Positions 3,913 through 63,768 of a stretch of 64,000 bases of DNA are shown here, one piece after another. This DNA is from Nitrospirota bacterium (lineage in GTDB: Bacteria > Nitrospirota > Leptospirillia > Leptospirillales > Leptospirillaceae), in the NCBI GenBank assembly GCA_021826965.1, contig JAKAYA010000001.1, positions 62,001 to 126,000 of the forward strand, written 5' to 3'. Positions within the stretch are counted from its first letter, which is position 1. Each line of letters starts with the position of its first letter. Below the pieces are notes generated by a model that was given only the letters and a program-made list of their open reading frames with translations, made no database searches and was not told where the DNA came from. Made by a program: the position numbers and the translations under genes.

Positions 3913-5127
3913 CTAGGTTCTTCCTTTGTATCCGGCATTGATTCGGACATATTCATAGCTCAGATCCGTCGTCCAGTATTCCGCCGTCATGGGACCCATT
4001 CCAAGGGAGACAGAAAGGTGAATTTCTTTACCTTTCATCACTTCGAGAGCTTTTTCTTCCTGGGCCTCTCCCATTCCGATACCATGATGAACCAGCGAGA
4101 CATCCCCGACCGAAATATCAATTTTCTCTTCTCTGACAACGACTCCTGCGTTCCCGATAGCAACCATGATTCGCCCCCAGTTGACGTCTTCTCCAAAAAA
4201 AGCCGTCTTCACCAGAATGCTTTTTGCAATCGACGCCGCCACTTTTTTCGCATCGGTTCGGGACTTGGCTCCCTGGACTGAAATATGAATAAATTTCGTC
4301 GCCCCCTCTCCATCATGAACGAGAAGTTCTCTCAGTTTTTGACAAACGCCATCCAGGGATTCGATAAAATCGGCATACGCCGGAGTGCCTTTCTGAATTT
4401 TTGGATTTCCGGCACACCCGTTTGACAGAATGATGACGCTGTCATTCGTACTGGTCTCTCCGTCCACGGACAATGTGTGGAAGTTGCGGTCGACGACCGT
4501 CTGGAGAGCGGCTTTCAGTGCTTCCCGGGAAATGTTTGCGTCACTCGTCAAGAAAACCAGCATCGTCGCCATCTGAGGATGAATCATTCCCACCCCCTTG
4601 GCGATCCCGCCTATCCGAACCGGGAATCCGGAACATTGAAACTCTGCTTGAGCCTCTTTCGGATAGGTGTCGGTCGTCATGATGGCCTTTGCGCATTCCA
4701 TATTTTTGTACGGAGATCCCCCCGCAACAAGATCGGGAATCACTTCGAGAATGTTATTCACTGGAAGTGGGCGACCAATGACTCCTGTGGATGCGCAAAG
4801 AATCTTTCGGGCAGTGCACGTCAGAAACTGGGAGACCTTTTCCGTCATCCGAAGAGCATCTTGCATTCCTGCATCGCCGGTACAGGCGTTCGCATTGCCG
4901 CTATTGACAAGAATGGCACGTGCTTGCCCGCCTCGGATTCTCCTCTGCGAAAGACTGACAGGAGCAGCTTTGATCCGGTTTGTCGTAAAGAGACCTGCCG
5001 CTTCCGCGTCCACATCGGAAACAATCAATGCGAGATCTAATTTCCGGTTCGACTTGATTCCTGAATACAATCCGTTCGCCTGAAACCCTTTAGGGAATGT
5101 AATCCCTCCCTGTATTTTCCGTGCCAA
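3913..5127 (-). CDS. argJ: Bifunctional ornithine acetyltransferase / N-acetylglutamate synthase
   Basis: Moves the acetyl group from N-acetylornithine to glutamate in the cyclic arginine pathway, and may also acetylate glutamate from acetyl-CoA. It has 404 residues, the usual length. The autocleavage site is visible as GMIHPQMATML, with the nucleophilic Thr at about residue 188; the precursor is cut before it into alpha and beta chains. Also present are NSGNANACTG near residues 75-84 and GATKFIHISVQG. The start is TTG at 5127 with GGAG 5 bases upstream. It lies 39 bases after argC and is probably cotranscribed with it. Confidence 0.96.
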   Translation of the reverse strand: MARKIQGGITFPKGFQANGLYSGIKSNRKLDLALIVSDVDAEAAGLFTTNRIKAAPVSLSQRRIRGGQARAILVNSGNANACTGDAGMQDALRMTEKVSQFLTCTARKILCASTGVIGRPLPVNNILEVIPDLVAGGSPYKNMECAKAIMTTDTYPKEAQAEFQCSGFPVRIGGIAKGVGMIHPQMATMLVFLTSDANISREALKAALQTVVDRNFHTLSVDGETSTNDSVIILSNGCAGNPKIQKGTPAYADFIESLDGVCQKLRELLVHDGEGATKFIHISVQGAKSRTDAKKVAASIAKSILVKTAFFGEDVNWGRIMVAIGNAGVVVREEKIDISVGDVSLVHHGIGMGEAQEEKALEVMKGKEIHLSVSLGMGPMTAEYWTTDLSYEYVRINAGYKGRT

Positions 5128-9783: not shown

Positions 9784-10239
9784 TTGTTTCGTCGTTTCAG
9801 CTCCCTTTTTTTTCTCTGCACGATTCTTTTTATAACCGTCACAGGAAACAGTTGCTCCAGGAAAACCTCCTCGACAAACCTTTCCAGTACGATTACGGGA
9901 GTCGTCCGTCTGGGACCTCACGTTCCTCTTTGGATGATGCATGGCACCTTGACGGTCGTCGTTTATATGAAAGGATCGACTTCTCCCGGATATTTGCCTG
10001 TCGCCCTGGCGGAATTCTATCATCCGGCATTCCCGGTTCCCTTCCGGATCACTCAGGAAAACGTAAGGCTGTCCGGTATCGACCTGAAGGGAAACGTTCG
10101 TCTGGTTGCCAGACTTGTACTGGACTCCGGATCTCCGCTCGTTGCAAGTGGCACATACACTGGTTCTACCGATGGGGAAGTAACTGTCGGAGGACCTCCT
10201 GTCAACTTGTTGATTGATACCCCCTCCCCCCGAAGATGA
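9784..10239 (+). CDS. Putative lipoprotein resembling the CcmI C-terminal domain
   Basis: Predicted exported protein of 151 residues. The TTG start at 9784 has GGGG 7 bases upstream. The N-terminus is two arginines, a hydrophobic stretch (FSSLFFLCTILFITV) and a cysteine in GNSC, which could be a non-canonical lipobox. From about residue 35 to the end, the order ITGVVRLGP, then TVVVYMKG, then PVALAEF, FPVPFRIT, SGIDLKGNVRLVARLV and PVNLLID follows the pattern I know from the periplasmic C-terminal domain of CcmI/CycH, the apocytochrome c handling protein. Here that domain stands alone, with no TPR part. Its stop overlaps folB by four bases. The family match is from memory. Confidence 0.6.
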   Translation: MFRRFSSLFFLCTILFITVTGNSCSRKTSSTNLSSTITGVVRLGPHVPLWMMHGTLTVVVYMKGSTSPGYLPVALAEFYHPAFPVPFRITQENVRLSGIDLKGNVRLVARLVLDSGSPLVASGTYTGSTDGEVTVGGPPVNLLIDTPSPRR

Positions 10240-10631
10240 AAGCGGAAGGCGCCAGAATTTCGATTCGCGATCTTCGATTTGCAGCTGTTGTCGGAGTCCT
10301 TCCCCAGGAACGAACGGAGGAACAGATACTGTCTTGCTCAGTCGACATCGACTTTCATTTCCTTCCAAATCATGATCCTTCCCGTACAGACAGGATACAG
10401 GACACGGTTGATTATTCGGCCGTCATCGAAGACATTCTCCATGCCGGCATCAAAGATTCTCCATTTCTTCTGGAAAGACTCTCCAGGATGATCGCAGAAA
10501 AAATCGCCAGCCGACATCCGGAAATCCGGTCGATTTCGGTTTTCCTGAAAAAAGTTCCACCTCCTGTCATCGGCGTGTCTGCCGAAACCATCGGGGTTTC
10601 CATCACCTATACTCCGGAGAACTATCCATGA
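10236..10631 (+). CDS. folB: Dihydroneopterin aldolase
   Basis: Cleaves 7,8-dihydroneopterin to 6-hydroxymethyl-dihydropterin in folate synthesis. It has 131 residues, slightly longer than the usual 115-125. Family features: ISIRDLRFAAVVGVLPQERTEEQ at the N-terminus (the Glu-Arg pair), DTVDYSAVIEDI in the middle, FLLERLSRMIAEKI, and VFLKKVPPPVIGV near the end with the conserved Lys-x-x-Pro. It overlaps the upstream lipoprotein by an ATGA and the downstream membrane protein by another ATGA, so the three are one translational unit. Confidence 0.93.
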   Translation: MKAEGARISIRDLRFAAVVGVLPQERTEEQILSCSVDIDFHFLPNHDPSRTDRIQDTVDYSAVIEDILHAGIKDSPFLLERLSRMIAEKIASRHPEIRSISVFLKKVPPPVIGVSAETIGVSITYTPENYP

Positions 10632-11470
10632 CATTCCAACCCAATGTATTTGGACTTCTTCTCCTGCAAACTTGCGCGGGGGGATTATATCTGACGAGCT
10701 TTGTCTACCGTTTCAACCGCGTCAACCGGACGTTTTACCGCTTGCACGGGACCCTGTTTCTGATTTTCTCCGGCCTGGCCTTTTTTTTCATGGGCCCGGC
10801 CACCTTTTCGCATCTGAGGTCCCTGGGGTTATCCAGCCCCGGACAAATCGCCATGACGTTTCTGGGTGTGGGAATAATCGCACTGGTCCTTTATAATCTC
10901 ATCGTCTATTTCGGCAATTGGGAAAAACAAAAACCTCTTTCCCGACCAATCCTGATTGCGACAGCCACACTTCACCTTTTTTCACTGGGAAGCACATTTC
11001 TCGCACTGGCTCCGGACTGGCGACTCTCTCTTTCAAACATCCTATCGGTTCTCTCGATCCTGGGATCCGCGTTTCTGCTTGGCGCGGTACTCCTCGCAAT
11101 GAATCTTGGGCATTTCTACCTGACAAATCCGACTCTGCCGATCGAACCTCTCCTCTTTCTCACCAGAGTTCTGACCGGAGTCATGATCTTTGTCGCATTG
11201 CTGGCTCTTCCAGAAATGGGCTATATGATCAAGACCAGCCCGGACTACCTGAAAGCCCTCCTTTTGGAGAATTTTGACGGACTTTACCTCTGGGGAAGGA
11301 TTCTTTTAGGGATCGTCGGTGGAACGGTCATCACGATCCTCGCACTCAAGACGGTCAAGATGCATTCTACACAGGCGGCGACAGGGCTTCTTTATGTAGA
11401 ACTGATCTTCATTCTTTTCGGTCAGGCGTTCTCGAATTTCCTCTTTTTAAGGCTCCAGATTCTCTCCTGA
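10628..11470 (+). CDS. Polytopic membrane protein of unknown function
   Basis: 280 residues with about eight hydrophobic segments (roughly residues 5-25, 40-57, 75-95, 107-127, 135-160, 178-200, 225-245 and 255-275). I do not recognise a family. A histidine in the second segment region, and NLGHFYLTNPTLP around residue 160, are conspicuous polar features inside or beside the membrane. It is translationally coupled to folB. The operon as a whole, with a CcmI-domain lipoprotein, makes a role in cytochrome or membrane-protein maturation conceivable, but nothing in the sequence proves it. Confidence 0.8.
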   Translation: MTFQPNVFGLLLLQTCAGGLYLTSFVYRFNRVNRTFYRLHGTLFLIFSGLAFFFMGPATFSHLRSLGLSSPGQIAMTFLGVGIIALVLYNLIVYFGNWEKQKPLSRPILIATATLHLFSLGSTFLALAPDWRLSLSNILSVLSILGSAFLLGAVLLAMNLGHFYLTNPTLPIEPLLFLTRVLTGVMIFVALLALPEMGYMIKTSPDYLKALLLENFDGLYLWGRILLGIVGGTVITILALKTVKMHSTQAATGLLYVELIFILFGQAFSNFLFLRLQILS

Positions 11471-11478
11471 GAACTGTG

Positions 11479-11523
11479 GAGTTCTCCATCGTGATCCTTT
11501 TAGGGAGCCACGATGGAGAACTC
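11479..11523. terminator. Convergent 15-bp inverted repeat at the rng 3' end
   Basis: GAGTTCTCCATCGTG at 11479-11493 and its exact complement CACGATGGAGAACTC at 11509-11523, separated by 15 bases. It lies just after the stop of the rightward membrane protein and covers the last codons and stop of the leftward rng gene, so it can act as a two-way terminator. No strong T-run follows on either side. Confidence 0.6.
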
Positions 11524-13080
11524 TTCTATGTGCGAGAGGGGATCCGACTTGATAACGATCTGACGCCGGATCTTCCGTTCGACTGCCTGAAGGAAATCTC
11601 TTTCCTCCTCCTGGAGGACAGTCTGTATCTCCGGATGTACGAAGAGGATCGCTTTCTTTTCCTTTGGATTCTGTCCACCCAGCGGAACGCTTCTCAATTC
11701 TTCGAGTATCTCATAGGCAATGGTTCTGAGAGATTTCGTATACCCCTTCCCGTCACAATAAGCGCATGTTTCGCCCAGGAGGTGGACCAGATCTTCCCTT
11801 ACCCTTTTCCGGGACATTTCGACAAGACCCAGATCAGAAATTTTGAGTGCGTTCGTCCGCGCCTTGTCGTGCGCCAGAGACTCCTGCAATCCCTGGAATA
11901 CCTTTTCCCGATTCTTTTCCTTTTCCATATCGATGAAATCGATAATGATGATGCCACCTATATTCCGGAGCCGAAGCTGACGCGCGATTTCCGTAACGGC
12001 TTCGAGGTTGGTTTGAAGGATCGTCGACTCCGGATCGTTTTCCCCGACAAATCGGCCGGTATTGACGTCAATGACCGTCAACGCTTCAGCCCGATCGATT
12101 ACCAGGTAACCTCCGCTCTTGAGCCAGACCTTTTTTTCCAGCGCTTTCGACAGCTGTCGCTCTATGTCATATGCCGAAAAAAGTGGTGTAGTCCCTTCCC
12201 AGTAACGGACACGTGACGCATAATCCGGCATGTAGGTTCCGATAAAATCCATAACCCGCTTGTATTCTTTCAAATCGTCGATATAAAGGGTTTCGACCTC
12301 ATTGGTCAGATAGTCCCGAATTGTTCGAAAAACCACATCCAGGTCTTCCCGGACAAGAGAAGGAGCTTTCATCGTCTCCGCCCTGGATCGAATATCCTGC
12401 CAGAGCAATTCCAGAAAGATGATATCGGACCGGGATTCCGATTCCGACATTCCTTCCGCAACCGTACGGATAATATATCCCCCTTTTCCTCCCTTGAGCG
12501 CGTTCACCATTTCCTTGAGTCGCTGACGCTCTTCCTCGTTGGTGATCCGGCGTGACACTCCCACATGGTTCACTTGGGGCATATAGACGAGATAGCGACC
12601 TGGAAGACTGATATAGGTCGTCGCCCTGGGACCTTTCGTACTGATCGGTTCCTTCGTCATCTGGAGAAGGATTTCCTGACCTTCCGTCAGAATTTCTTCG
12701 ATCGGCTTCCGGGGCATCTTGCGCGACGGTTCCGGTCGGGGCACCGGGACGGATGCCGGATCTTCCGGCAACATACCTTCCGGAGGTATCTCGTCAGAAA
12801 GGGCCGGAGGAGGGGACTGTTCATCCTGCGGCATTTCCCCGGGCAAGATGTCCGAACCTTCCACATAGATGTCATCCACATAGAGAAAAGCGGCCTTGTC
12901 CAGGCCAACATCTACAAAAGCTGCCTGCATGCCGGGAAGAACCTTGTTCACTCTTCCTTTGTAGATATTGCCGACAACCCCGGCTTCTCTCTTCCGCTCA
13001 AAAAAGAATTCCGCTAACTGGCGATTTTCCACGAGTGCGACTTTCGTTTCCTCATGACTGACATGTATCAATATTTCCAC
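11500..13080 (-). CDS. rng: Ribonuclease G/E family endoribonuclease
   Basis: Single-strand-specific endoribonuclease for rRNA 5' processing and mRNA turnover. It has 526 residues, RNase G-like in size with no long C-terminal scaffold. The GTG start at 13080 has GGAGG 9 bases upstream. The N-terminal S1 domain (GNIYKGRVNKVLPGMQAAFVD) is interrupted by a proline-rich insertion of about 40 residues, roughly 85-125. The catalytic DNase I-like part has VIDVNTGRFVG and IIIIDFIDM, whose aspartates bind magnesium. The zinc-link is reduced to CAYCDGKG. It is the last gene of the shape-gene run that starts with mreB. Confidence 0.95.
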   Translation of the reverse strand: MEILIHVSHEETKVALVENRQLAEFFFERKREAGVVGNIYKGRVNKVLPGMQAAFVDVGLDKAAFLYVDDIYVEGSDILPGEMPQDEQSPPPALSDEIPPEGMLPEDPASVPVPRPEPSRKMPRKPIEEILTEGQEILLQMTKEPISTKGPRATTYISLPGRYLVYMPQVNHVGVSRRITNEEERQRLKEMVNALKGGKGGYIIRTVAEGMSESESRSDIIFLELLWQDIRSRAETMKAPSLVREDLDVVFRTIRDYLTNEVETLYIDDLKEYKRVMDFIGTYMPDYASRVRYWEGTTPLFSAYDIERQLSKALEKKVWLKSGGYLVIDRAEALTVIDVNTGRFVGENDPESTILQTNLEAVTEIARQLRLRNIGGIIIIDFIDMEKEKNREKVFQGLQESLAHDKARTNALKISDLGLVEMSRKRVREDLVHLLGETCAYCDGKGYTKSLRTIAYEILEELRSVPLGGQNPKEKKAILFVHPEIQTVLQEEERDFLQAVERKIRRQIVIKSDPLSHIEEFSIVAP

Positions 13081-13188
13081 AATTTCTATCCTCCAAAAGC
13101 TGCAATAACCCACCATGAAGCCCGAACAGGCAAGTCCATTCGAGAATTCACAACCGACCCCCTGCATTACTCATTTACATCTATAGAT

Positions 13189-14280
13189 CTAGGTTTCCTC
13201 GTGAATCCTGACATTCAGGACGAGAGCCAATCCCATCATCGAAACCAGTAACGCGGACCCCCCGTAACTTAGAAGCGGCATGGGTATCCCGACAACCGGC
13301 AAAATCCCGACTACCATGGATGCATTAACCAGAAAACTGATTCCGAACAGGCTTGTCATTCCAGCCGCCAAAAAGAATCCGCGCGATTCGCGGCAAAGGA
13401 CGGCAGTCCTGTACCCGAACCATAAGATGTAACCATTTGCCAACAAAAGAAAAATTGCTCCAATCAAACCCCATTCTTCTGAGAAAACAGCAAAAGCAAA
13501 ATCCGTATGAGCTCCCGGAAGATAGCGAAACTTCACCTGTGTCGCCCCTTTGAGTCCTTGCCCGAACCATCCCCCGGATCCGACCGCCACCATCGACTGC
13601 ATCGTATGGTAACCCAGTCCCGTCGGATCCGATTCCGGATTGAGAAAAGTTCGGATTCTGTCTTTCTGGAAAGCATGGAGGTGATTCCAGAGAATCTGCC
13701 ATCCGATCGGAAGCAGGATCACCGATGCCCACAGAGCCGTGAAAAATGTCCGGGATCGGACTCCTCTCAAAAAAAGAAAAACCCCGAGAGAGAAAAAAAG
13801 TCCAATAGCTGTCCCCAAATCCGGCTGCTTGGCGATCAGGATTCCAGGCAAAAGGGCCATACCGGAAGCTGCAAGGACCTTTTCAAAAGACAAGCCATCC
13901 TTGTCATCCATCTTCCCGAAAAACCAGATCAACGCCATCATCAAGGCGAGCTTCATAAACTCGGAGGGCTGAATCATTACGGGTCCATAACCGATCCATC
14001 TCCTGGCACCATGACTCTGGTGTCCGGCGAATTTGACAAGTATCAGAAGAACAAGAAGCACACCATAAATTGGAAAACTGACTTTCAATATTTGCTTGTA
14101 CGGTATGCCGACGAGAATAACAAGCATTCCGAAACCTGCGGCTGCCCATACTCCTTGTCGGGCGGCCAGATGCCAGTCGATCGACCACTGCACAAGGATT
14201 CCCGACAGAACGATGGCAAGAATGTCCAATAAATAAAACGGATATGACCGGAATACGTAAGAAATCGGAACCGATTTCAA
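13189..14280 (-). CDS. rodA: Rod-shape-determining SEDS glycosyltransferase RodA
   Basis: Peptidoglycan polymerase of the elongasome in the inner membrane, paired with PBP2. It has 363 residues with about ten membrane segments. Typical motifs: GARRWIGYGPVMIQPSEFMKL, AKQPDLGTAIGL (the Asp is catalytic in this family), FAVFSEEWGLIGAIFLLL and GIPMPLLSYGGSALL. The start is TTG at 14280, overlapping the PBP2 stop (TTGA), with AAGGAG upstream. Confidence 0.96.
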   Translation of the reverse strand: MKSVPISYVFRSYPFYLLDILAIVLSGILVQWSIDWHLAARQGVWAAAGFGMLVILVGIPYKQILKVSFPIYGVLLVLLILVKFAGHQSHGARRWIGYGPVMIQPSEFMKLALMMALIWFFGKMDDKDGLSFEKVLAASGMALLPGILIAKQPDLGTAIGLFFSLGVFLFLRGVRSRTFFTALWASVILLPIGWQILWNHLHAFQKDRIRTFLNPESDPTGLGYHTMQSMVAVGSGGWFGQGLKGATQVKFRYLPGAHTDFAFAVFSEEWGLIGAIFLLLANGYILWFGYRTAVLCRESRGFFLAAGMTSLFGISFLVNASMVVGILPVVGIPMPLLSYGGSALLVSMMGLALVLNVRIHEET

Positions 14281-16205
14281 GAATGAGGCTCCTTCCTTTT
14301 CTCCGACGCCTGGACGTTTTCGTTTCCGGCCAGATAATCCTGGTAAAACTCCTGAAATACCGCTCGAGCGACCGGTCCGGCGACATCTCCCCCGTCTCCA
14401 CCGTTTTCAACAAGAACGGAGACAACGATGCGCGGGTGATCGAAAGGAGCGAACCCAACGAACCATGAATCCGGACGGATCTTCTCATGGACGGTGCCGC
14501 CTTCAGGGATCCTGTTCGAAATGACCTGGGCTGTGCCGGTCTTTCCGGCAATTTCCATCTCTTTCATCCGCACAGGATGACCGGTGCCATGCGGTTCATT
14601 TACCACCGCCCACAATCCCTCCCTCAAAGAGGAAAAACTGGCTTCCCGAAGAGGAGTCGTCCGAACGGCCTCAACAGATGGAGAATTCCCGGGAGGATCT
14701 GAGGAAAGATAAAGGTGAGGTTTGACCAGCACGCCCTGTGTGGCGACAACTCCCATCAGACGAGCCATCTGTAAAGGGGTGACCGTCAAATAACCTTGCC
14801 CGATGGCGAAAGGCAATGTTTCCCCCGGATACCAGGGCTGGTGCATCCGCTTCATTTTCCAGTCGCGATCCGGAACCGTACCGGGATTTTCAGACGGCAA
14901 ATCGATTCCTGTCCGGGATCCAAGACCAAAGCTGTGGGCCATTTCCGCAATCTTGTCCGGACCGAGCGCCATCCCTGCCCGATAGAAATAAATATCACAC
15001 GACTGCATGATAGCCCGACGCAGACGAAGTATTCCATGGCCACCCCGCTTCCAGTCGTGAAAGGCCCATCCGCCAAGGAATACGATTCCCTTACAATTGA
15101 ATGGTTTGGCGGGATCGATTACGCCCGCTTTGAGCCCGGCCATCGTTGTCACAACCTTGAAGACGGAGCCGGGAGGATATAACCCCTGGATGGCCCTGTT
15201 CGTTAATGGGCGATCCGGATTGTTCAGGAGGTCGTGCCATGTTTTTGCCGTCAGAGCGGAGGAAATCTGATTCGGATCAAAACTGGGATGACTGGCCAGA
15301 ACCAGGATTTCCCCGTTGTTGGGATCAAGCGCCACAACGGCTCCACGACGGTCTCCCAACGCTGTTTCCGCAACCTGCTGCAAACGGAAGTCCACTGTCA
15401 GCCGAATGGATCTGCCCTGTGTCGGATATTTTGGCGCAAGCTTCCGGATGATGCTTCCCTGCGAATCCACAAGTTTTCGGGACTCGCCGGGAGCTCCTTG
15501 GAGGATGGAGTCGAACTCCATTTCGACCCCCGTCTTGCCGATCCCCGTTCCCGGAGGCAGGTGGTGGGCGTAGGACTTTTTCATGTCTCCCACGGTCAGG
15601 GAACCGACATACCCCAGAATATGCGCGGCCAACGTTCCCTGGATATAAGTCCTTTGGGGTATGGTCTGGATAATGATCCCTGGAAGGCGATACAGATCCA
15701 TGCTGACTCTTCCGACTTGAGCCGTCGTCATATGGGCTTTCAGCGGAATTGGGATATAGCTGGGAAGCACATCTCGCATCCGGTCAAAAGCGTCCTGAAG
15801 GTCGGTGGGAGGGAGGGACAAATCCTGACTGAGAATGAAAAACGTCCTGCTTCTGTTCCGGACTTCGTCCGGAATGATGGAGACGACAAAATTGGTTCCG
15901 TTTCCAACAAGGATATGCCCGTTCCGGTCCAGAATAGATCCCCGGAGAGGGGGAAGGGGGACGATGCGGAGAATGTTTCCCTGGGCCAGCTTCACATACT
16001 TTTCATGCTGATCGATCTGGACTTCGAAAAGACGGAAAAGAAGAACAAAGAACCCTGCTGCAATCAGAATGAGGAGAGCAAGAAGCCTCTTCCGGGGTGT
16101 CGATGCAAGCCGGAAGAAAGAACCTCCTCCGGGGATGAATCGTCTGTTTAGCCCTGAAGCCGAACCGAATCCGGATAAACCACGAACACGCGTATACTCC
16201 AGCAC
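14277..16205 (-). CDS. mrdA: Penicillin-binding protein 2
   Basis: Class B transpeptidase of the elongasome, anchored by one membrane helix (residues about 39-60), with 642 residues. The dimerisation domain begins with PPLRGSILDRNGHIL. In the transpeptidase domain the active-site serine is in GSVFK (YPPGSVFKVV), the second motif is SCD (MQSCDIYF), and the third is KTGTA. The start is GTG at 16205, preceded by AAGGTGA; an out-of-frame ATG overlaps it. The first 35 residues are a basic, glycine-rich cytoplasmic tail. RodA is coupled directly downstream. Confidence 0.96.
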   Translation of the reverse strand: MLEYTRVRGLSGFGSASGLNRRFIPGGGSFFRLASTPRKRLLALLILIAAGFFVLLFRLFEVQIDQHEKYVKLAQGNILRIVPLPPLRGSILDRNGHILVGNGTNFVVSIIPDEVRNRSRTFFILSQDLSLPPTDLQDAFDRMRDVLPSYIPIPLKAHMTTAQVGRVSMDLYRLPGIIIQTIPQRTYIQGTLAAHILGYVGSLTVGDMKKSYAHHLPPGTGIGKTGVEMEFDSILQGAPGESRKLVDSQGSIIRKLAPKYPTQGRSIRLTVDFRLQQVAETALGDRRGAVVALDPNNGEILVLASHPSFDPNQISSALTAKTWHDLLNNPDRPLTNRAIQGLYPPGSVFKVVTTMAGLKAGVIDPAKPFNCKGIVFLGGWAFHDWKRGGHGILRLRRAIMQSCDIYFYRAGMALGPDKIAEMAHSFGLGSRTGIDLPSENPGTVPDRDWKMKRMHQPWYPGETLPFAIGQGYLTVTPLQMARLMGVVATQGVLVKPHLYLSSDPPGNSPSVEAVRTTPLREASFSSLREGLWAVVNEPHGTGHPVRMKEMEIAGKTGTAQVISNRIPEGGTVHEKIRPDSWFVGFAPFDHPRIVVSVLVENGGDGGDVAGPVARAVFQEFYQDYLAGNENVQASEKRKEPHS

Positions 16206-16266
16206 ATTCTCACCTTATTTAGTCGATGGCCGGCGACCGCTCTTTATCTATATCCAGAATCACCCG

Positions 16267-16776
16267 TCACCGGACAGGCATCCAACCCCTCAGGAGCCGG
16301 GTGCCATATATGCCAAGTATCAGGAAAGTCGCCATAATCCCAGTGTTAACCTCTGTTTTTGTGTCCTGCAAGATCCGGTGAAGCGACTGGGGATCGCCCA
16401 ACAACTCCTTGCCACCCCAGATCCCTCCGAGATAGACAGTCATCACCGACCAGAAAGCCAGAATGGCATTTCTTGGATGGTCCCATCGAATCAGCGGGTA
16501 CAAAAAATAAACCAGAAAAGATGCCCATTCGGCACGAAGAATCCATTCGACCCATGAGCCCATATTCAAAACGGAAATCAGAAGACCGACGGAAAACCCC
16601 ATCAGAAAGACACCCCATGGGGAAACATTGCGCATCACAAAGAAAAGGGTCAGAAGGAGCCAGTCCACCCCCGCCTGCCAGAGCCCACCCGAATTCTGTA
16701 TCGATCCGCCGGCCAGAAGGAGGATGCAGGCAATTCCGATCCGGCTCCAAGAATTCCTCACTTCGACTGTTTCCAT
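16267..16776 (-). CDS. mreD: Rod-shape-determining protein MreD
   Basis: Small inner-membrane protein of the elongasome, about 169 residues with five to six hydrophobic segments. Identification rests on position between mreC and PBP2, size and topology, because MreD sequences are weakly conserved. The start is uncertain: ATG at 16776 overlaps mreC, and GTG at 16761 forms a four-base GTGA overlap with the mreC stop; neither has a strong ribosome site. Confidence 0.82.
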   Translation of the reverse strand: METVEVRNSWSRIGIACILLLAGGSIQNSGGLWQAGVDWLLLTLFFVMRNVSPWGVFLMGFSVGLLISVLNMGSWVEWILRAEWASFLVYFLYPLIRWDHPRNAILAFWSVMTVYLGGIWGGKELLGDPQSLHRILQDTKTEVNTGIMATFLILGIYGTRLLRGWMPVR

Positions 16777-17597
16777 TCGAGAGAAGACCGATTCCATTCA
16801 CGGGGAGGCGTAAGTACATAGACGACCGACAGGTCGGAAAGATTTTCCGCCGCAACAACATCCAGTTTTTTGAACAGGAGGCCGGGAGAAGGACGGACAT
16901 CCTTGACAAAACCAATCGCTTCTCCGGGAGGGAAAAACCCGTCTTCTCCACTCGTCACGACAGCCTGACCCTTCTGCACCTGTGTCATCGAAGGAATATA
17001 TTCCATCGTCATGGGACGTCCCACCCCCATCCCCCGGAGGACCCCTTTTTGCTCACTCCCGGGAAGAAGTCCTTCCATGGCAAAAAAGGAGTCCTCCAGC
17101 CAGAGAACCTGGGAAAAATCCGGAAAAACTTTCACGACAAAACCGACCACGCCCTGAGGCCCCATCACACCGTCTTTTCGATGCACTCCCTGATCCTTGC
17201 CACAATCCACAAGAAGCGTCCTGTGCCCCAGAGTCGGGTTATCCGCAAGCAATCGGCAGGAGATCCCCTTGCTTACCACGCGTTTCTTCAGTTCGAGGAG
17301 TGCCTGGAGACGCTCGTTCTCGACCAGAAGGGATTCCGCCTTTTCCAGACGAGTCGAAAGAAGGACGACTTCCTTCCGAAGCATCGTGTTTTCTTTTTCC
17401 GCCTCCATCAAATGAGCGTACCGGTTCCAGAAAGAGGATGTCGTCAGATAGGTGTCCTGGAAGAGGCCAAGGATTGACCGGACAACCAGCATCGGAGGAC
17501 GAACGATAATTTTCTCGAACAGTGCCGGATAAAACCCCAGGAACAGGAGAACGATTCCCGCCATGGAAAAGGCTATGACAATCCTTTTTCTTGTCAA
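16758..17597 (-). CDS. mreC: Rod-shape-determining protein MreC
   Basis: Bitopic protein linking MreB to the periplasmic elongasome, 279 residues. One membrane segment at residues about 7-25, then a coiled coil at about 62-105 (EAEKENTMLRKEVVLLSTRL and on), then the beta domain with VDCGKDQGVHRKDGVMGPQGVVG and the second half QVQKGQAVVTSGEDGFFPPG. This is the normal MreC architecture. The start is TTG at 17597, with AGGAG rather far upstream. Confidence 0.95.
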   Translation of the reverse strand: MTRKRIVIAFSMAGIVLLFLGFYPALFEKIIVRPPMLVVRSILGLFQDTYLTTSSFWNRYAHLMEAEKENTMLRKEVVLLSTRLEKAESLLVENERLQALLELKKRVVSKGISCRLLADNPTLGHRTLLVDCGKDQGVHRKDGVMGPQGVVGFVVKVFPDFSQVLWLEDSFFAMEGLLPGSEQKGVLRGMGVGRPMTMEYIPSMTQVQKGQAVVTSGEDGFFPPGEAIGFVKDVRPSPGLLFKKLDVVAAENLSDLSVVYVLTPPREWNRSSLEWKQSK

Positions 17598-17629
17598 TCT
17601 TTACAAAGCTCCTGGCCTGACAACCGAAA

Positions 17630-18661
17630 CTAGTCCCGGATGGACACCTTCTTCAGAACATCCAGTTCCTCGAGCGTTTTGCCTGTCCCCATAACGACTG
17701 TCGTCAGAGGATTGTCGACCGTTACAATGGGCAGATGAATCTCATCCCGGATACGCATATCGAGACCCCGGAGCATCGATCCCCCTCCCGTCAGAACGAT
17801 CCCTCTGTCGATGATGTCCGCGGACAATTCCGGTGGGGTGTTTTCGAGCGTTTTCTGGATAGTCTGAATGATCCTCGCGATCGTGTCCGACAAGGCTTCA
17901 CGAATTTCCTCCTCGGTCACCTTCAGGGTTTTCGGCAAACCATGTACGAGGTCTCTTCCCTTGATCACCATGGACCGGGGTTCATTCTGGGCACATGCCG
18001 AACCAACCTCCATCTTGATCCGTTCACCCATGGCGTCGCCAATCAAGAGATTATGTTTTTTTCGGATGTAGTGGATGATATCCTCGTCCATCTGGTCTCC
18101 TGCAACCTTGATGGATTCACTATATACAATGCCCCCGAGAGAAATCACCGCGATATCCGTCGTCCCTCCACCGATATCGATCACCATGTTGCCCGAAGGC
18201 TCCATGATCGGAAGACCCGCCCCGATCGCTGCTGCCAAAGGCTCCTCGATGAGATAGACCTCGCGAGCCCCGGCCAGTCTGGCCGAATCCTTGACGGCCC
18301 GCTGCTCGACCTGGGATATTCTGGACGGAATGCACACGACCATCCGGGGGCGAACGAAAGTCGATCTCTGATGAACCTGGTTGATAAAGTAGGAGAGCAT
18401 CTGCTGGGTCACGTCCGGGTTGTCGATAACTCCGTTTCGCATGGGACGGACAGCCACGATATTTCCTGGAGTGCGCCCGAGCATCTTTTTGGCTTCATGT
18501 CCGATTGCGAGAATCTGGTCCGTCTTCTGGTCGATTGCCACGATCGACGGCTCATTGATGACGATCCCCTTGCCCCTTACATACACAAGCGTATTGGCCG
18601 TTCCAAGATCGATCGCAAGATCCTGCGACAGAAATCCGAACAAGCTGGCCAGCAAAGACAA
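17630..18661 (-). CDS. mreB: Rod-shape-determining actin homologue MreB
   Basis: Membrane-associated actin-like filament protein, 343 residues. The nucleotide site is seen as DLAIDLGTANTLVYVRGKG (phosphate 1), VIDIGGGTTDIAVISLGG (phosphate 2) and GIVLTGGGSMLRGLD (adenosine). The N-terminal stretch MSLLASLFGFLSQD can serve as the amphipathic membrane helix. The start is TTG at 18661 with GGAGG 5 bases upstream. It precedes mreC, mreD, PBP2 and rodA, the standard shape operon. Confidence 0.98.
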   Translation of the reverse strand: MSLLASLFGFLSQDLAIDLGTANTLVYVRGKGIVINEPSIVAIDQKTDQILAIGHEAKKMLGRTPGNIVAVRPMRNGVIDNPDVTQQMLSYFINQVHQRSTFVRPRMVVCIPSRISQVEQRAVKDSARLAGAREVYLIEEPLAAAIGAGLPIMEPSGNMVIDIGGGTTDIAVISLGGIVYSESIKVAGDQMDEDIIHYIRKKHNLLIGDAMGERIKMEVGSACAQNEPRSMVIKGRDLVHGLPKTLKVTEEEIREALSDTIARIIQTIQKTLENTPPELSADIIDRGIVLTGGGSMLRGLDMRIRDEIHLPIVTVDNPLTTVVMGTGKTLEELDVLKKVSIRD

Positions 18662-56782: not shown

Positions 56783-57079
56783 CAGGAGGAAAAGCCTTTG
56801 AAATCCAATCGGTCGGACACCCAAAACACGGTAAACTTCAAAATGGGGACTCCATCAATCCAATCTTTTTTTGACTTGTCTAGCGTGATCTGCTGAGAGA
56901 CATTCCTTTTCGCATCACGTCATATTTTTCTTTTTACACAAGATACAACAATTTCCCGAACGGAACCATCAAGAGTGTACGTGATCGGATCAGTCCATGA
57001 TTCTGGGTAAAAACCAAAATTAAACAGGAAAATTTTTTTGGAAAAACCTGGAATAGACCTTGAGAAGGGGAAAGAAAAA

Positions 57080-57124
57080 TGGTAGGCACGGGCGGTTTCG
57101 AACCGCCGACCTCTACCGTGTCAA
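57080..57124 (-). other. 3' half of tRNA-Val(GAC): attachment-site scar
   Basis: Reading leftward: loop TTGACAC (anticodon GAC, U33 present), stem strand GGTAG, variable AGGTC, T-arm GGCGG-TTCGAAA-CCGCC, acceptor CGTGCCT, discriminator A, encoded CCA. These 45 bases are an exact canonical 3' half. Upstream of the anticodon loop the sequence (GGTTTTAATACA) cannot pair, so the 5' half is missing. This is what an integrase leaves at the far end of an element inserted in a tRNA gene. Its direction places the element to the right. Confidence 0.88.
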
Positions 57125-57493
57125 TGTATTAAAACCCATGGATTTTACGTGAGGTCAATCATGATTATTCATTATTTTAAATAAGATAAAAAACAGAAAA
57201 GAATCACGGTTAACCATCATTCTCCGATCACGGTGTGCCAAAATTGTGCCAAGGAAACCCTTGACGAGTGACCTACCAGCCATGAGCCTATGGGGAACAG
57301 ACTCTCCCCCCTTCTTAACAGGGCATCCTTGGAAGAAGCACAGGCCGGGTGCGTATTTTGTCCATCCGTTCTTCAAGATCGACGTTCTGTCGTGATAGAG
57401 GCAACTTCTTGCCTTGCCGCATTAACCGGAGATCATTGATTTTCATGCCGATTTGAATGCATCGAACTCATTTTTTAAAACCTTCGGTCAAAA
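57125..57493. other. AT-rich stretch beside the tRNA scar, no gene seen
   Basis: 369 bases containing a very AT-rich tract (57160-57200) and GTGCCAAAATTGTGCC near 57234-57249, a pair of GTGCC direct repeats. No integrase gene or start with a ribosome site is seen. A 73-codon leftward frame is not convincing. Confidence 0.5.
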
Positions 57494-58099: not shown

Positions 58100-58128
58100 T
58101 TTCACCGGCATACACAATTCATTATACT
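58100..58128 (+). promoter_or_regulatory. Candidate promoter for the primase-helicase operon
   Basis: TTTCAC at 58100-58105, 17-base spacer, TATACT at 58123-58128. Good -10, weak -35. It lies about 75 bases before the ATG at 58203. Confidence 0.3.
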
Positions 58129-58202: not shown

Positions 58203-58757
58203 ATGTGCCTGCGGAAATCCGGTAAAAATCCGGGCTGGAGCGACCTCAAGCCGAGTCTTGCCGGGCTGGATCGCAACGGTCTGCTCAAATTGATCCAGGA
58301 TCTGTACGCCGCCAGCAGGGACAACCAGTCGTTCCTGCATGCTCGCTTCGGATTGGGCGAGGATGTAACGGGACCCTTCAAGGCTACCATTTCCCGCTGG
58401 GTCTGCCCCGATGTCATACGCAACCAGAATATTTCAGTCTCCAGGGCCAAAAAGGCCATCTCCGACTACAAGAAAGCCATCGGCGATCCCGAGGGAATGG
58501 CCGAACTGACAGTGTTCTACTGCGAATCCTGCACGGAATTCCTCGGATTTTGCGGGATGGATGACGCAGGATATTTCAATGCCCTGACCGGCATGTTCGC
58601 TCAGGCGCTGAAAAACGTCGGTCGACTCGATCCCGATCTCAGGCCGCCTTTCGTGGAGCGGCTCGAAACCGTGCGACGCGAAGGACACAACTATGGCTAT
58701 GGTGTTGGGGAGGACATGGACGACCTGATGAAGGAGTCCGGACTTGGCGGGGAATGA
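58203..58757 (+). CDS. Unknown protein coupled to the primase-helicase (DUF6155-like)
   Basis: 184 residues, no membrane segment. N-terminal part WSDLKPSLAGLDRNGLLKLI, then QDLYAASRDNQSFLHARF resembles the DUF6155 family (recalled pattern: L-x-x-L-x-x-x-x-L-x-x-L-I-x-x-L-Y then N-x-x-F-L-x-A-R-F). The middle has YKKAIGDPEGMAELTVFYCE, the rest is helical. No catalytic motif is seen. GAGGAGG lies 2-5 bases before the ATG. Its 3' end overlaps the primase-helicase gene by 14 bases, which argues for a joint function. Confidence 0.7.
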   Translation: MCLRKSGKNPGWSDLKPSLAGLDRNGLLKLIQDLYAASRDNQSFLHARFGLGEDVTGPFKATISRWVCPDVIRNQNISVSRAKKAISDYKKAIGDPEGMAELTVFYCESCTEFLGFCGMDDAGYFNALTGMFAQALKNVGRLDPDLRPPFVERLETVRREGHNYGYGVGEDMDDLMKESGLGGE

Positions 58758-61122
58758 ACCGGAGCAGAATCGGCTCGAGGAGCAGTTGCGGCAACTAAAG
58801 GAAGACAACGCCCGCCTCAAGGCTCTGCTGACATCGCACGGCATTGCATGGGAGAAAAATCCACCTCTTCCTGCGATCCAGCCTCCGGGGCCGGAACCGG
58901 CCACCCCCAGGTTTTCCAGTTCCGAAAAAGTCTCCCTGTTTCGCCGCCTGTTCAGGGGCCGGAACGACGTCTACCCGCTTCGATGGGAATCTGCCAAGGG
59001 AACGTCAGGTTATGCTCCCGCCTGCGGGAACGAGTGGACGCCGGGAGTTTGCCACAAGCCGAAGGTCCGTTGCGGAGATTGCACGCAACGCGTGTTTCTG
59101 CCGGTGACCGACCAGGTCATTTACGGCCATCTGACCGGTAAGCATACCATCGGCGTCTATCCTCTTCTGGGCGACGATACCTGCTGTTTTCTGAGTGCCG
59201 ATTTCGACGAGGCGGACTGGAAGGCCGATGCCCGGGCCTTTATCGAGTCCTGCAAGGAACTGGATATCCCTGCCGCACTCGAGGTCTCCCGTTCCGGGAA
59301 CGGAGCCCATGTCTGGATCTTCTTTTCGGACCCGGTTCCTGCCCGCGAAGCCCGCCAATTGGGAGCGCTCCTGATCAGCCACACCTGCGATCGCACCCGG
59401 CAGCTTTCCTTGTCCAGCTATGACCGCTTCTTCCCGAACCAGGATACCCTGCCCAAGGGAGGATTCGGAAACCTGATCGCGCTCCCCTTGCAGAAGCTTC
59501 CCCGCGAAAAAGGGGGCAGCGTGTTCGTCGACGGGCATTTCGAACCCTACCCGGACCAGTGGGCCTTTCTGTCCTCGATGAAATCCCTGTCCAAAACAGG
59601 TCTGGAAAACGCCCTCCTGCGGTCGGGCGATAGTCGGAATCCCCTGGATGTGGCCTCTATCTCCGAGGAAGAGGAGGGCAAGCCGTGGCAACGGCAACCA
59701 ACGCCCTCAATCCGGATATCCGGTCCGTTTCCGGAATCCCTGACCTTGGTGCTTTCGAACCAGATCTTCATCGCCAAAACAGGTCTGTCTCAGTCGTTGG
59801 CAAACCGCCTGATCCGTCTGGCCGCCTTTCCGAACCCGGAGTTCTACAAAGCCCAGGCTCTGCGTCTGCCTGTGTGGAACAAGCCGCGCCTTATCGGTTG
59901 TGCCGAGAACTACCCCCAGCATATCGGGCTCCCCCGGGGCTCTCTCGATGCCGTTCTGGAACTGCTCGAACAAAACGGCATCGGCTCGAAGATCCAGGAT
60001 GAACGTCTTTCGGGAATGAGGATCTCCGTCAAGTTCACCGGAACCCTCAGAAAAGACCAGAAAGCGGCGCTCGGGGAGCTTCTGAAACATGACGTCGGAG
60101 TATTGCATGCACCGACGGCCTTCGGCAAGACCGTCACCTCTTCTGCGATGATCGTCCGCAGGAAAGTCAGCACGCTGGTGATCGTCCATCGCACCGAGCT
60201 TCTTCGGCAATGGCAGGAGCGCCTCATCCGTTTTCTCGACATTTCCAAGTGTGGACTCGGCACGATCGGGGGCGGAAAGACCAAACCTTCCGGAAAGATC
60301 GACATCGCCGTCATGCAGTCCCTGTCCCGACGGGAGGATCTGGCGGAATTCCTCGACGGGTACGGCCAGATCATTGTCGACGAGTGCCACCACCTTTCCG
60401 CGTTTTCCTTCGAGTCTGTCCTCAAACAGGCAAAGGCCCGCTATGTCGTCGGTCTGACCGCGACTCCGGTGCGCCGGGACGGACATCACCCGATCATCTT
60501 CATGCAATGCGGACCGATCCGCCACAGTGCAGACAGGTCGGAAACCACGCCGGAACGACTGGAAGTTTGGCCGCGGCAACTCTCCTGTCCCGACATCCCG
60601 TCCGGCTCGGCCATCCAGGAGGTGTTCCGCATCCTTGCGAACGACCCGGAGCGCAACCGTCGCATCTCCCGGGATGTGATGGCGGCCTATCGGGAAGGAC
60701 GAAAGATTCTGGTGCTGACCGAGCGGACCGATCATCTGGAACTCTTGCGCGAGGCCTTGGGCGAAACCATCGAATACTGCTTCGTATTGCACGGACGGCT
60801 TTCCAGAAAGACGAGGGCGACCATTCTCGGCGAACTCGACGTTCTGAACGAATCAGCCCCGCGCGTTCTTCTGTCCACCGGGCGCTTGATCGGCGAGGGG
60901 TTCGATCATCCTCCCCTGGATACCCTGGTGCTGGCGATGCCGATCTCGTGGAAAGGAACTCTTCAACAGTACGCGGGCCGGCTCCACCGGGAGTGCACCG
61001 ACAAGCGGGATGCCCGCATCTACGACTATGTCGAGACCGGTCATCCTCAACTGAATCGCATGTGGGACAAACGCCAGAAGGGCTATCGGAACATGGGATA
61101 TCGGATCCTGCCCCTGACTTGA
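58744..61122 (+). CDS. TOTE-type primase-helicase fusion
   Basis: 792 residues. A short coiled coil (8-32, LEEQLRQLKEDNARLKALL) precedes an archaeo-eukaryotic-primase domain (about 60-280): zinc-type Cys/His cluster (C103, H104, C110, C113), catalytic DFD at 153-155 (SADFDEADW), SGNGAHVWIFF with His189, and SSYDRFFPNQD near 224-234. Then a superfamily 2 helicase related to XPB (about 425-790): APTAFGKTV (Walker A, 457-464), DECHH (546-550), LTATPVRRDG, and QQYAGRLHR (motif VI). This is the architecture of AEP-helicases of the TOTE conflict systems. TTG start at 58744 with GAAGGAG 7 bases upstream. GC-rich compared with the core. Confidence 0.85.
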   Translation: MAGNEPEQNRLEEQLRQLKEDNARLKALLTSHGIAWEKNPPLPAIQPPGPEPATPRFSSSEKVSLFRRLFRGRNDVYPLRWESAKGTSGYAPACGNEWTPGVCHKPKVRCGDCTQRVFLPVTDQVIYGHLTGKHTIGVYPLLGDDTCCFLSADFDEADWKADARAFIESCKELDIPAALEVSRSGNGAHVWIFFSDPVPAREARQLGALLISHTCDRTRQLSLSSYDRFFPNQDTLPKGGFGNLIALPLQKLPREKGGSVFVDGHFEPYPDQWAFLSSMKSLSKTGLENALLRSGDSRNPLDVASISEEEEGKPWQRQPTPSIRISGPFPESLTLVLSNQIFIAKTGLSQSLANRLIRLAAFPNPEFYKAQALRLPVWNKPRLIGCAENYPQHIGLPRGSLDAVLELLEQNGIGSKIQDERLSGMRISVKFTGTLRKDQKAALGELLKHDVGVLHAPTAFGKTVTSSAMIVRRKVSTLVIVHRTELLRQWQERLIRFLDISKCGLGTIGGGKTKPSGKIDIAVMQSLSRREDLAEFLDGYGQIIVDECHHLSAFSFESVLKQAKARYVVGLTATPVRRDGHHPIIFMQCGPIRHSADRSETTPERLEVWPRQLSCPDIPSGSAIQEVFRILANDPERNRRISRDVMAAYREGRKILVLTERTDHLELLREALGETIEYCFVLHGRLSRKTRATILGELDVLNESAPRVLLSTGRLIGEGFDHPPLDTLVLAMPISWKGTLQQYAGRLHRECTDKRDARIYDYVETGHPQLNRMWDKRQKGYRNMGYRILPLT

Positions 61123-61280: not shown

Positions 61281-63749
61281 CTATCCCGGTCGACGGACCT
61301 GCAGTGCGGACGCCAGCAGGGTCAAAGCCTCGGACAGGCGCGCGGCCGTCTCGGGGGAAGGAAGAGGAACCCTGAGATGCTGCTTCCCCGTAGAGGGTTC
61401 CCTTTCAATCCAGGGATGGCCCGAAGAGGAGGGATTTCCGGCCGCTCCCAGAGCGGACGCCAGCAGGGTGCCCACCTTGGCCAGGGCCTGCCACGGGTCG
61501 GCGTCGGCGTCAAAACCTCCGGAACTTTCATTCGAAGCTGTCCCTTGGCCTTCTTCACCCGACTCTCGCATCTCCCTCTCAACAGAGAGGGACTCGAGGG
61601 ACTTCTCCGCGGCTCCCGTCTCTTCGGCGGGAGGCACGGCTTCGGCCGTTCCCATGCGACTTGTCACGCTCTCGATCTCGTTCATGAAGCGGGTAAGGCG
61701 GGACCCTCCCAGCGAGACCTCCCCCACACCCCCGTCGAGGATCCCCGCCGACAGGGACCGCTTGAAGGACAACACCGAAAGCATCCCTTCCTCGATCGTG
61801 CCCTTGGCCACGAAATTGACGATCTGGACCGGCCGTTTCTGTCCCATGCGGTGAATCCGCGCGATCCGCTGCTCAAGGAGGGCCGGATTCCAGGGAAGAT
61901 CCATATTCACAAGGATCGAGGCCTGCTGGAGGTTCAGGCCGGTGGCACCCGCATCCGTCGACAGGAAGACCCGACACTCCGGATCGTCCCGGAACCGATC
62001 CACAAGCGCCGGGCGCCTTTCGGACGGAACACCCCCATGAAAACGGACATATCCGATCTTCCGGGCTTCGAGACGACGGACGACGATGTCGTGGGTTCGC
62101 GTCCACTGGCTGAAGACCACCGCCTTGGCCTCAGGCTGGGCAAAGAGATCGTCCAAAAGGGCTGCCAGCTCGTCCGACTTGACCCCGTGGTCGCTTTCCG
62201 GGTCGAGAAGATAGGTGCTGTTGCAGACCATGCGCATATTCTGGAGAGCGCAGGTCAATCGTCTCTGGTCCGTGTCCGACAAAAATTTCGTCTTTCTCCA
62301 GCGCTGGACAATTTTCGCCACAATGTCGGCATTCTCCTGATGGTGGACCATCTGAGGCTCGGTCATCGGCACCAGGAGGTTCTGGTCGGTACGCTCCGGG
62401 AGCTGGGTCAACACCTCGTCCTTTCGGCGGCGTATCAGGACCGGGGCCAAGGTTTGTCCGATCTTCTCGAGTCCGGTATATCCCACGACCCGGCCGGTCT
62501 CGTCCTTGACCTGATGTTCGTGCAAGAGCTTCCAGGTCGGGCCGAGCCTGTAGCGGTCGACGAACTGGACGATCGAGACGAGTTCCTCCAGCTTGTTCTC
62601 CAGCGGAGTACCGGTGAGAACCACGGCGTAGGGGCTGTCGATGCGTTTGAGCGCCCTGGAGGCGATCGTGTTCCAGTTCTTGACCCGCTGGGCTTCGTCG
62701 ACGATCACCAGCTCAGGTCCCCATGCGGTGATCAGGTCGAGATCGGGTTGAAGTTTCTCGTAGTTGGTGATCTTGCAGAAGTCCTCCAGAGCAAACTCCT
62801 TCTGACGGTGGACGCGCCCGCCGGAAATCACCCTGGACTCCCGACCGGAGAATTTCCGGATCTCGCTCTGCCATTGATACTTGAGGGAGGTCGGACAGAC
62901 GACAAGAACCTTCGAAACGCCGAAGTGCCGGGCCAGGATTTCGGACGCGGCGATCGCCTGGATGGTCTTTCCCAGGCCCATTTCATCGCCGATCAGAGCC
63001 CGCCCCGCACAGACGGCGAAAAGAGCCCCCTCCACCTGATAAGGATACAGTGGTACCTTGAGAAGGTTCCCAAGTCGCTCCCTCCTTATCTCTCCGTGAC
63101 CAAAGAACTCCTCCAGGACCGTTTCGCGATGTTCGGTGTCCTTCCTCCCGGCGATGAAGTCCAGCGCGTCGTCGTGGGCGCGCATTTCGTGCCCTCTCTG
63201 AGCCGAAAAACTCATGAACTTTTCAATCTCGCCGAATCTCTCGGGAGAAAGCATGGCCTCGCGTTCCGCGTCGAACAGCGTTTCGGCCCTTTTCCGCACA
63301 GGCTCAGGGCATTCCGTTCCGGCCCTGAAATGTACCGAAAGCCCGTGATCGTTCCTGAGGTACAATTCGGAAAAGGGAGGACGGTAGCCTTGCGCGAAAG
63401 CCGCTTCGGATCCCGGAAGCTTTTCCAGGGCCGCAAGGACAAATTCGATGTGTTTGCAGGTTCCCAGTTCGTTCGTGGCATAATCCGGACAGAAGCAATG
63501 ATTGTCTCCCGGCCTGTTACCCCGGATTTCCACGCGATAGACGCTCTTGGAGAGAGGATTGCGGACGCGGTACTCTGAAAAGAACGGCTCCGTCCCGATG
63601 TTCTCGAGTTCGAAGTTCTGCTCGCGACCGAACTGGCGGCGGAGCCTCCTCTGCCATTCGACCGGCGAAAGATCCGCCGGCGGAAGAGTCCGGGACAATT
63701 TGGGTTCTTTAGACGATTTGTCGCTTTCGGGAAATCGCGTTATTTTCAT
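61281..63749 (-). CDS. SNF2 family helicase with SWIM zinc finger
   Basis: 822 residues. SWIM motif Cys85-x-Cys87-x10-Cys98-x-His100 (CFCPDYATNELGTCKH), then a linker of about 130 residues and an SNF2 ATPase: LIGDEMGLGKTIQA (Lys261), VDEAQRVKN, LTGTPLENKLEEL, and in the second lobe DAGATGLNLQQAS and QRIARIHRMGQKRPVQI. The last 130 residues are acidic and low-complexity, ending in a short folded-looking segment. SWIM-SNF2 proteins translocate on or remodel DNA; several occur in defence islands. ATG 63749 with GGTGAGG 6 bases upstream. Convergent with the primase-helicase. Confidence 0.92.
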   Translation of the reverse strand: MKITRFPESDKSSKEPKLSRTLPPADLSPVEWQRRLRRQFGREQNFELENIGTEPFFSEYRVRNPLSKSVYRVEIRGNRPGDNHCFCPDYATNELGTCKHIEFVLAALEKLPGSEAAFAQGYRPPFSELYLRNDHGLSVHFRAGTECPEPVRKRAETLFDAEREAMLSPERFGEIEKFMSFSAQRGHEMRAHDDALDFIAGRKDTEHRETVLEEFFGHGEIRRERLGNLLKVPLYPYQVEGALFAVCAGRALIGDEMGLGKTIQAIAASEILARHFGVSKVLVVCPTSLKYQWQSEIRKFSGRESRVISGGRVHRQKEFALEDFCKITNYEKLQPDLDLITAWGPELVIVDEAQRVKNWNTIASRALKRIDSPYAVVLTGTPLENKLEELVSIVQFVDRYRLGPTWKLLHEHQVKDETGRVVGYTGLEKIGQTLAPVLIRRRKDEVLTQLPERTDQNLLVPMTEPQMVHHQENADIVAKIVQRWRKTKFLSDTDQRRLTCALQNMRMVCNSTYLLDPESDHGVKSDELAALLDDLFAQPEAKAVVFSQWTRTHDIVVRRLEARKIGYVRFHGGVPSERRPALVDRFRDDPECRVFLSTDAGATGLNLQQASILVNMDLPWNPALLEQRIARIHRMGQKRPVQIVNFVAKGTIEEGMLSVLSFKRSLSAGILDGGVGEVSLGGSRLTRFMNEIESVTSRMGTAEAVPPAEETGAAEKSLESLSVEREMRESGEEGQGTASNESSGGFDADADPWQALAKVGTLLASALGAAGNPSSSGHPWIEREPSTGKQHLRVPLPSPETAARLSEALTLLASALQVRRPG

Positions 63750-63768
63750 GAAGAACCTCACCGTTCGT

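Follow-up and report, generated by a model that had tools for sequence, protein, structure and literature searches.

The window analysed here, a stretch of 64,000 nucleotides from a Nitrospirota contig, contains a two-gene unit in which a small all-helical protein of the DUF6155 group is encoded directly ahead of a primase-helicase (Table 1). We conclude that this pair is a real, conserved two-gene version of an already known primase-helicase family, and that it is not a chance arrangement, because about 33 related loci have the same layout and both genes are under purifying selection. The main new result is a bias in position: the small gene, whether paired with the primase-helicase or alone, is often the 3'-terminal member of a restriction operon. 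A sequence-only reading of the window had described two ORFs overlapping by 14 bases, and both frames are present. In the intact pairs of relatives, the primase-helicase likewise starts inside the small gene, mostly 8 or 20 bases before its end and sometimes 14 or 17; this overlap, usually of 8 or 20 bases, recurs in ∼30 loci from several phyla. Promoter-like sites such as the one listed ahead of the small gene are as numerous as expected by chance.

Table 1. Features of the gene pair and its surroundings in the window.
Feature	Position	Strand	Evidence
tRNA-Val(GAC) 3' half, probable attachment-site remnant at island edge	~57077..57128	-	tRNA comparison
Weak promoter-like site 5' of small gene, TTCACC-16-TATACT	58101..58128	+	low weight
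Small gene, 184 aa, all-alpha DUF6155-group protein	58203..58757	+	ORF list, family alignment, AF2 model
AAGGAG ribosome-binding site for primase-helicase TTG, within small gene, 7 nt upstream of TTG	58731..58736	+	sequence
Overlap of small and primase-helicase frames, 14 bases	58744..58757	+	sequence
Primase-helicase gene, 792 aa, TTG start	58744..61122	+	ORF list, profiles, motif alignment, predicted structure
Predicted long N-terminal helix / coiled coil, residues 5-31	58756..58836	+	AF2 secondary structure
AEP-TOTE primase domain, residues 61-289	58924..59610	+	PF22548 E=2e-100; Foldseek to 7nqe, TMt 0.77
Putative zinc site, Cys cluster C94-C103-C110-C113	59023..59082	+	conservation in 40 relatives
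AEP motif I (DxD), D153-F-D155	59200..59208	+	D153 and D155 invariant
AEP motif II His189	59308..59310	+	invariant
XPB-like superfamily 2 helicase, residues 434-760	60043..61023	+	ResIII 8e-23, Helicase_C 1.3e-6; XPBII 5tnu/6p4f
SNF2-family helicase, N-terminal CxC...CxH SWIM-like stretch, convergent with primase-helicase	61281-63761	-	

The 792-residue protein matches the AEP-TOTE profile PF22548 with 335.6 bits against a curated cut-off of 27, and profile matches to ResIII/DEAD and then Helicase_C lie C-terminal of this domain. Across 40 relatives, the AEP residues D153, D155, H189, and D263 (motifs I DxD, II sxH, and III hD) are invariant, as are G461, K462, T463, D546, E547, H549, Q742, R746, and R749 of the helicase part, which has Walker A, DExH, and motif VI. 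Searching the PDB by sequence returned archaeal XPB helicases and the CAPP Prim-Pol, and the predicted structure resembles XPB/TFIIH helicases and the CAPP Prim-Pol 7nqe (TM 0.77 for the AEP domain); its mean pLDDT is 71 and its pTM 0.42, so the model is usable at domain level only. These data confirm the earlier assignments of an AEP primase with intact DxD and His and of an XPB-like helicase with intact motifs. A failure of the N-terminal domain to match an AEP fold had been named as grounds for rejection; both the profile and the predicted structure match AEP. The coiled coil that had been proposed is consistent with the helix predicted at residues 5-31. As for the proposed zinc cluster, its four cysteines are nearly invariant in the 40 relatives and fall in a region of low pLDDT, and the zinc site itself is putative.

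The AF2 model of the small protein (pLDDT 89, pTM 0.80) is all-helical, with nine helices. Residues conserved in this protein include N41, H46, R48, K60, and K83-K91. Profiles from Pfam, NCBIfam, and PHROG gave no match to it, and its only PADLOC match was weak (Cas1_IIIa, E=0.01). Using tblastn, we found it related to plasmid-borne proteins, some of them annotated DUF6155; in the alignment of this family, 8 of 11 members match PF19652, and the family aligns over its full length with a Bacteroides DUF6155 protein (tblastn 1e-8, hhalign probability 100). The DUF6155 assignment of the sequence-only reading thus stands as full-length homology at the level of the family; PF19652 itself misses the window copy. 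A fold search of PDB and BFVD with the model found no confident relative; designed repeats, TPR, and 14-3-3 proteins were rejected as generic helical repeats, all at E>0.05. Among viral contigs, the small protein has no relative, and the primase-helicase has three matches, none with the small gene. Our literature search found no text on DUF6155 or on TOTE conflict systems, and no functional study of, or experiment on, either protein.

We counted the pairing from both sides. Small-gene relatives came from one scan of 84,980 species genomes, from which the best 80 of 152 loci were taken, so this sample is biased to window-like copies; the scan loci together with plasmid and Nitrospirota copies gave 72 informative loci and 12 more that could not be judged. 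L006, a weak sixth small-gene match in Nitrospirota, is a channel-like membrane protein and was dropped. A primase-helicase lies downstream of the small gene at 33 of the 72 informative loci (including a few with internal stops or one intervening gene), a remnant at 6, and none at 33. In the small-gene tree, 14 of the 16 members of the window's clade are paired. Among 35 genomes or records without an intact neighbour to the small gene, 28 have no primase-helicase at all at the threshold used; in one of the remaining seven, the genome of L033, the sole match is the adjacent primase-helicase fragment.

The complementary sample comprised 77 primase-helicases taken regardless of the small gene: 9 from other Nitrospirota, 19 from Burkholderiales, 21 from one gammaproteobacterial class sample, and 28 from the phylum of locus L026. 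The small gene is upstream in seven (L129, L146, L147, L157, L168, L169, and L170), broken in L146 and L170, and present as a remnant in L167; the 70 without an adjacent small gene include a few loci whose sequence stops too early on the upstream side for a decision. Identity to the window copy reaches 68% or more in seven of the 77 primase-helicases, of which five have the small gene (two broken), one has the remnant, and one (L148) has none, whereas below 68% identity only 2 of 70 carry it. We therefore regard the coupling as a trait of the clade. The window's 14-member clade in the primase-helicase tree is wholly paired, in a tree assembled partly via the small gene. The earlier claim of a coupled pair is borne out in that the coupling of both genes recurs; the accompanying caveat, that the small gene might rarely be adjacent to AEP-helicases elsewhere, is contradicted when counted from the small gene (33/72) but holds from the side of the primase-helicase (7/77).

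For close pairs, dN/dS is 0.15 to 0.25 in the small gene and 0.09 to 0.26 in the primase-helicase, and it is 0.03 to 0.25 in small genes that have no primase-helicase partner. Judging from these ratios, both genes are functional, and the small gene is retained without the primase-helicase too. Pairwise distances of the two proteins correlate (r=0.72, 27 pairs, 0/2000 permutations), indicating that the genes travel together. Six loci (L036, L077, L083, L091, L146, and L170) have a broken small gene. Programmed frameshifting was rejected as an explanation: the break points differ (apart from L083 and L170, which are alike) and L077 carries an insert, so this looks like ordinary decay. The insert in L077 (positions 4389-4608) is a MITE-like element of ∼220 bp with inverted ends (CCTGAATCCGTGA...TCACGGATTCAGG) that splits the small gene.

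These patterns bear on whether the two genes could form a pair like a toxin and antitoxin, with a toxic primase-helicase restrained by the small protein. Two overlapping genes, the small one in front, would suit such a relation, as would the six loci where the small gene stands beside a mere fragment of primase-helicase. However, most primase-helicases sampled have no adjacent small gene (70/77), which does not fit obligate pairing, and L146, L167, and L170 have an intact primase-helicase beside a small gene that is broken or reduced to a remnant. Given this reverse decay, we also discarded toxicity of the primase-helicase as the reason for keeping the small gene. Moreover, lone small genes are under purifying selection in genomes that mostly have no primase-helicase, so the small gene is not an obligate partner, toxin, or antitoxin. 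The sequence-only reading had suggested that the small protein could be a sensor, inhibitor, or effector. The persistence of the small gene alone and the decay of either gene beside an intact other argue against an obligate inhibitor or toxin relation, and we consider it highly improbable.

Restriction-type genes (HsdR/HsdM/HsdS, RhuM, YhcG, Mod/Res, and McrC, with representatives checked with Pfam) lie within 4 kb upstream of the small gene on the same strand at 22 of 65 loci; they lie upstream but on the opposite strand at 1 locus, and downstream at 2. This count leaves out 'HsdR' labels on the primase-helicase itself, which are helicase cross-matches. The other 43 loci have no recognised restriction gene in that interval. 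The spacing between the small gene and the gene upstream is sometimes only -10 to +20 bases, and in L067 McrC lies 2 bases ahead of the small gene. The order is HsdR-RhuM-small-AEP in L058, HsdM/S-RhuM-Fic-small in L026, and Mod-Res-small in L062, L064, and L070. Of 15 loci examined with a lone primase-helicase, 4 also have it behind a restriction gene of the same strand (RhuM in L206, YhcG in L208, HsdR in L211 and L215). No restriction genes are within view of the window pair. In L019 (positions 9989-17924), a Wadjet-type set (a DUF3375 protein, then proteins of 211, 1121, and 391 aa) separates the small gene from an N-terminal AEP fragment of 90 residues.

The repeated place at the 3' ends of restriction operons suggests that the pair acts on DNA that restriction produces or attacks. 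We give an even chance to the reading that the pair is a mobile DNA-processing cassette linked to restriction or defence with the small protein as its adaptor; the setting points to restriction or defence, and the small protein is probably an adaptor. According to this reading, the XPB-like motor would act on duplex DNA wherever breaks, forks, or other abnormal structures occur, opening it or moving along it, and the AEP domain would prime or extend DNA at these sites. The overlapping frames would ensure that the small protein is made in step with the primase-helicase; it is most likely a non-catalytic adaptor or regulator, binding either the primase-helicase or its complex with DNA and partners. 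The pair might then finish off invading DNA or repair host breaks after restriction. What we observe are the domains, the intact motifs, the conserved overlap, the joint inheritance, the restriction linkage, and the purifying selection; enzymatic activity, binding between the two proteins, and a part in defence or repair are what we infer. The genes may also lie near restriction operons simply because defence genes cluster in islands, and not because they act together. A broader version holds that restriction operons can take up either the DUF6155-group protein or the AEP-helicase as an interchangeable tail module, which would unwind and copy or cap the ends left by restriction in a step of post-restriction DNA synthesis, with the helical protein as a docking factor shared by several restriction types; we hold this only tentatively and think it rather less than probable.

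The partner of the small gene seems exchangeable. In L026 (positions 9995-12509), the small gene overlaps a 658-aa SWIM-finger protein by 8 bases in place of the primase-helicase, and Schlafen AlbA_2 proteins hold a similar place beside it in L053, L057, and L086. Divergent small genes of Azonexus/Dechloromonas (L011, L092, and L093) lie 4 bases ahead of a 115-aa gene, annotated DUF3024 in L011, and none of these three loci has a primase-helicase. That the small gene also overlaps or abuts the SWIM and Schlafen genes, and that about half of small genes have no primase-helicase, is what one would expect if the two genes merely shared a mobile defence island, the overlap having arisen once or twice and hitch-hiked since with genes that are functionally unlinked. 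Such hitch-hiking is less easily squared with pairing that spans divergent clades, with the conserved overlap and matched divergence, or with the retention of the small gene in 5 of 7 independently sampled close relatives, two of them in broken form, and we think it unlikely.

The sequence-only reading had placed the pair in a mobile island, and the surroundings agree: a tRNA-Val 3'-half remnant lies at the edge and GC content climbs from ∼53% to 60% across the pair. None of the ORFs listed near the pair was recognised as an integrase; the contig stops 1,270 bases beyond the window. The remnant is 96 to 98% identical over 49 to 54 nt to the tRNA-Val of genomes of the same family, and no complete copy of this tRNA-Val(GAC) was found in the assembly. 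In L198, a genome of the same family, a homolog of the window gene at 51.8-52.7 kb lies within 1.5 kb of tRNA-Val(GAC), so the site is probably chromosomal. An Rfam match to HPnc0260 (56992-57118, plus strand; 44 bits against a gathering threshold of 59) overlaps the remnant and is probably due to chance. Between the remnant and the gene pair, on the other strand, lie genes for BrnT (PF04365, 8.8e-25) and a BrnA-like protein (PF14384, below cut-off), in keeping with the adjoining toxin-antitoxin pair noted before. Neither this BrnT/BrnA pair nor the convergent SNF2 gene belongs to the two-gene unit: the other loci hold no relative of the SNF2 protein, and neither do plasmids at E 1e-60.

More widely, the primase-helicase occurs in 10 of 148 Nitrospirota genomes, 19 of 399 Burkholderiales genomes, and 734 of 5,426 complete Escherichia coli genomes (13.5%), where homologs are annotated 'TOTE conflict system archaeo-eukaryotic primase'. 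One E. coli O157:H7 copy lies in an integrase-bearing island beside urease genes. Z1568, which gives its name to the Z1568-like AEP family (PMC5862659), has been placed in an O157 island (PMC3064760), and we infer from this position, rather than from a Z1568-labelled sequence, that the O157:H7 homolog is Z1568.

This distribution could mean that the primase-helicase serves the island or plasmid on which it lies, by replicating it or by restarting its replication, and that the small protein is an accessory in replication or maintenance of the element. Bacterial PrimPol-PV1 AEPs are found nearly exclusively in mobile elements (PMC5862659), and the primase-helicase occurs on plasmids, near integrases and transposition genes, and in the window by the tRNA remnant. 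Yet 745 of 750 E. coli copies are chromosomal, many relatives sit within restriction operons, 103 carriers among 72,556 plasmids are too few for a usual replication gene, and no replicon genes were seen near the pair in the window; we regard a replicative role as doubtful. The XPB-type helicase core and Prim-Pol fold would suit host DNA-damage tolerance or repair, in which both activities would be used to rescue stalled forks or breaks, and the place beside restriction genes would shield the host from its own restriction enzymes. A mobile-element primase-polymerase of Thermus has been tied to genome maintenance (PMC9751324). The sporadic, mobile distribution in Nitrospirota and Burkholderiales is unlike that of a housekeeping repair gene, and this explanation too strikes us as improbable.

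AEP-TOTE helicases are thus common in E. coli, and our literature search found no described function for them. The recurrent partner gene and the place behind type I, type III, and other restriction operons provide a concrete, testable idea of their role. A further implication is that some restriction systems may include a step of DNA synthesis, which is absent from the descriptions found in our literature search.

Among known systems, CRISPR-associated Prim-Pols differ from the window protein, which falls below the NCBIfam PrimPol_Msp cut-off (94 versus 200 bits). No cas1 was found in a search of the genome (assembly 89% complete), so the setting is not that of a CRISPR-associated Prim-Pol, and the window contains no CRISPR-like exact repeats. 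The CAPP-Helicase type and the non-CRISPR CAPPs have a Prim-Pol fold and a C-terminal helicase, as does the window protein, and non-CRISPR CAPPs with helicase domains occur in mobile elements (PMC8211822). The archaeal XPB helicase with Bax1 (PDB 6p4f, 6p4o) is likewise an XPB-like helicase with a partner protein; Bax1 is an endonuclease, whereas the window small protein is all-helical and shows no such likeness among its matches. The family of the small protein is ∼25% identical to the Bacteroides DUF6155 (PF19652) protein, and on the single Bacteroides plasmid examined DUF6155 has no neighbouring primase-helicase, unlike the window small gene. The AEP-TOTE or Z1568-like AEPs of the Prim-Pol clade (PMC5862659) share with the window protein the AEP domain and its motifs, the Cys cluster, and the joining of AEP to helicase; the AEP-TOTE genes in the examined E. 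coli and most others have no DUF6155-type gene upstream, whereas the window's clade mostly carries one.
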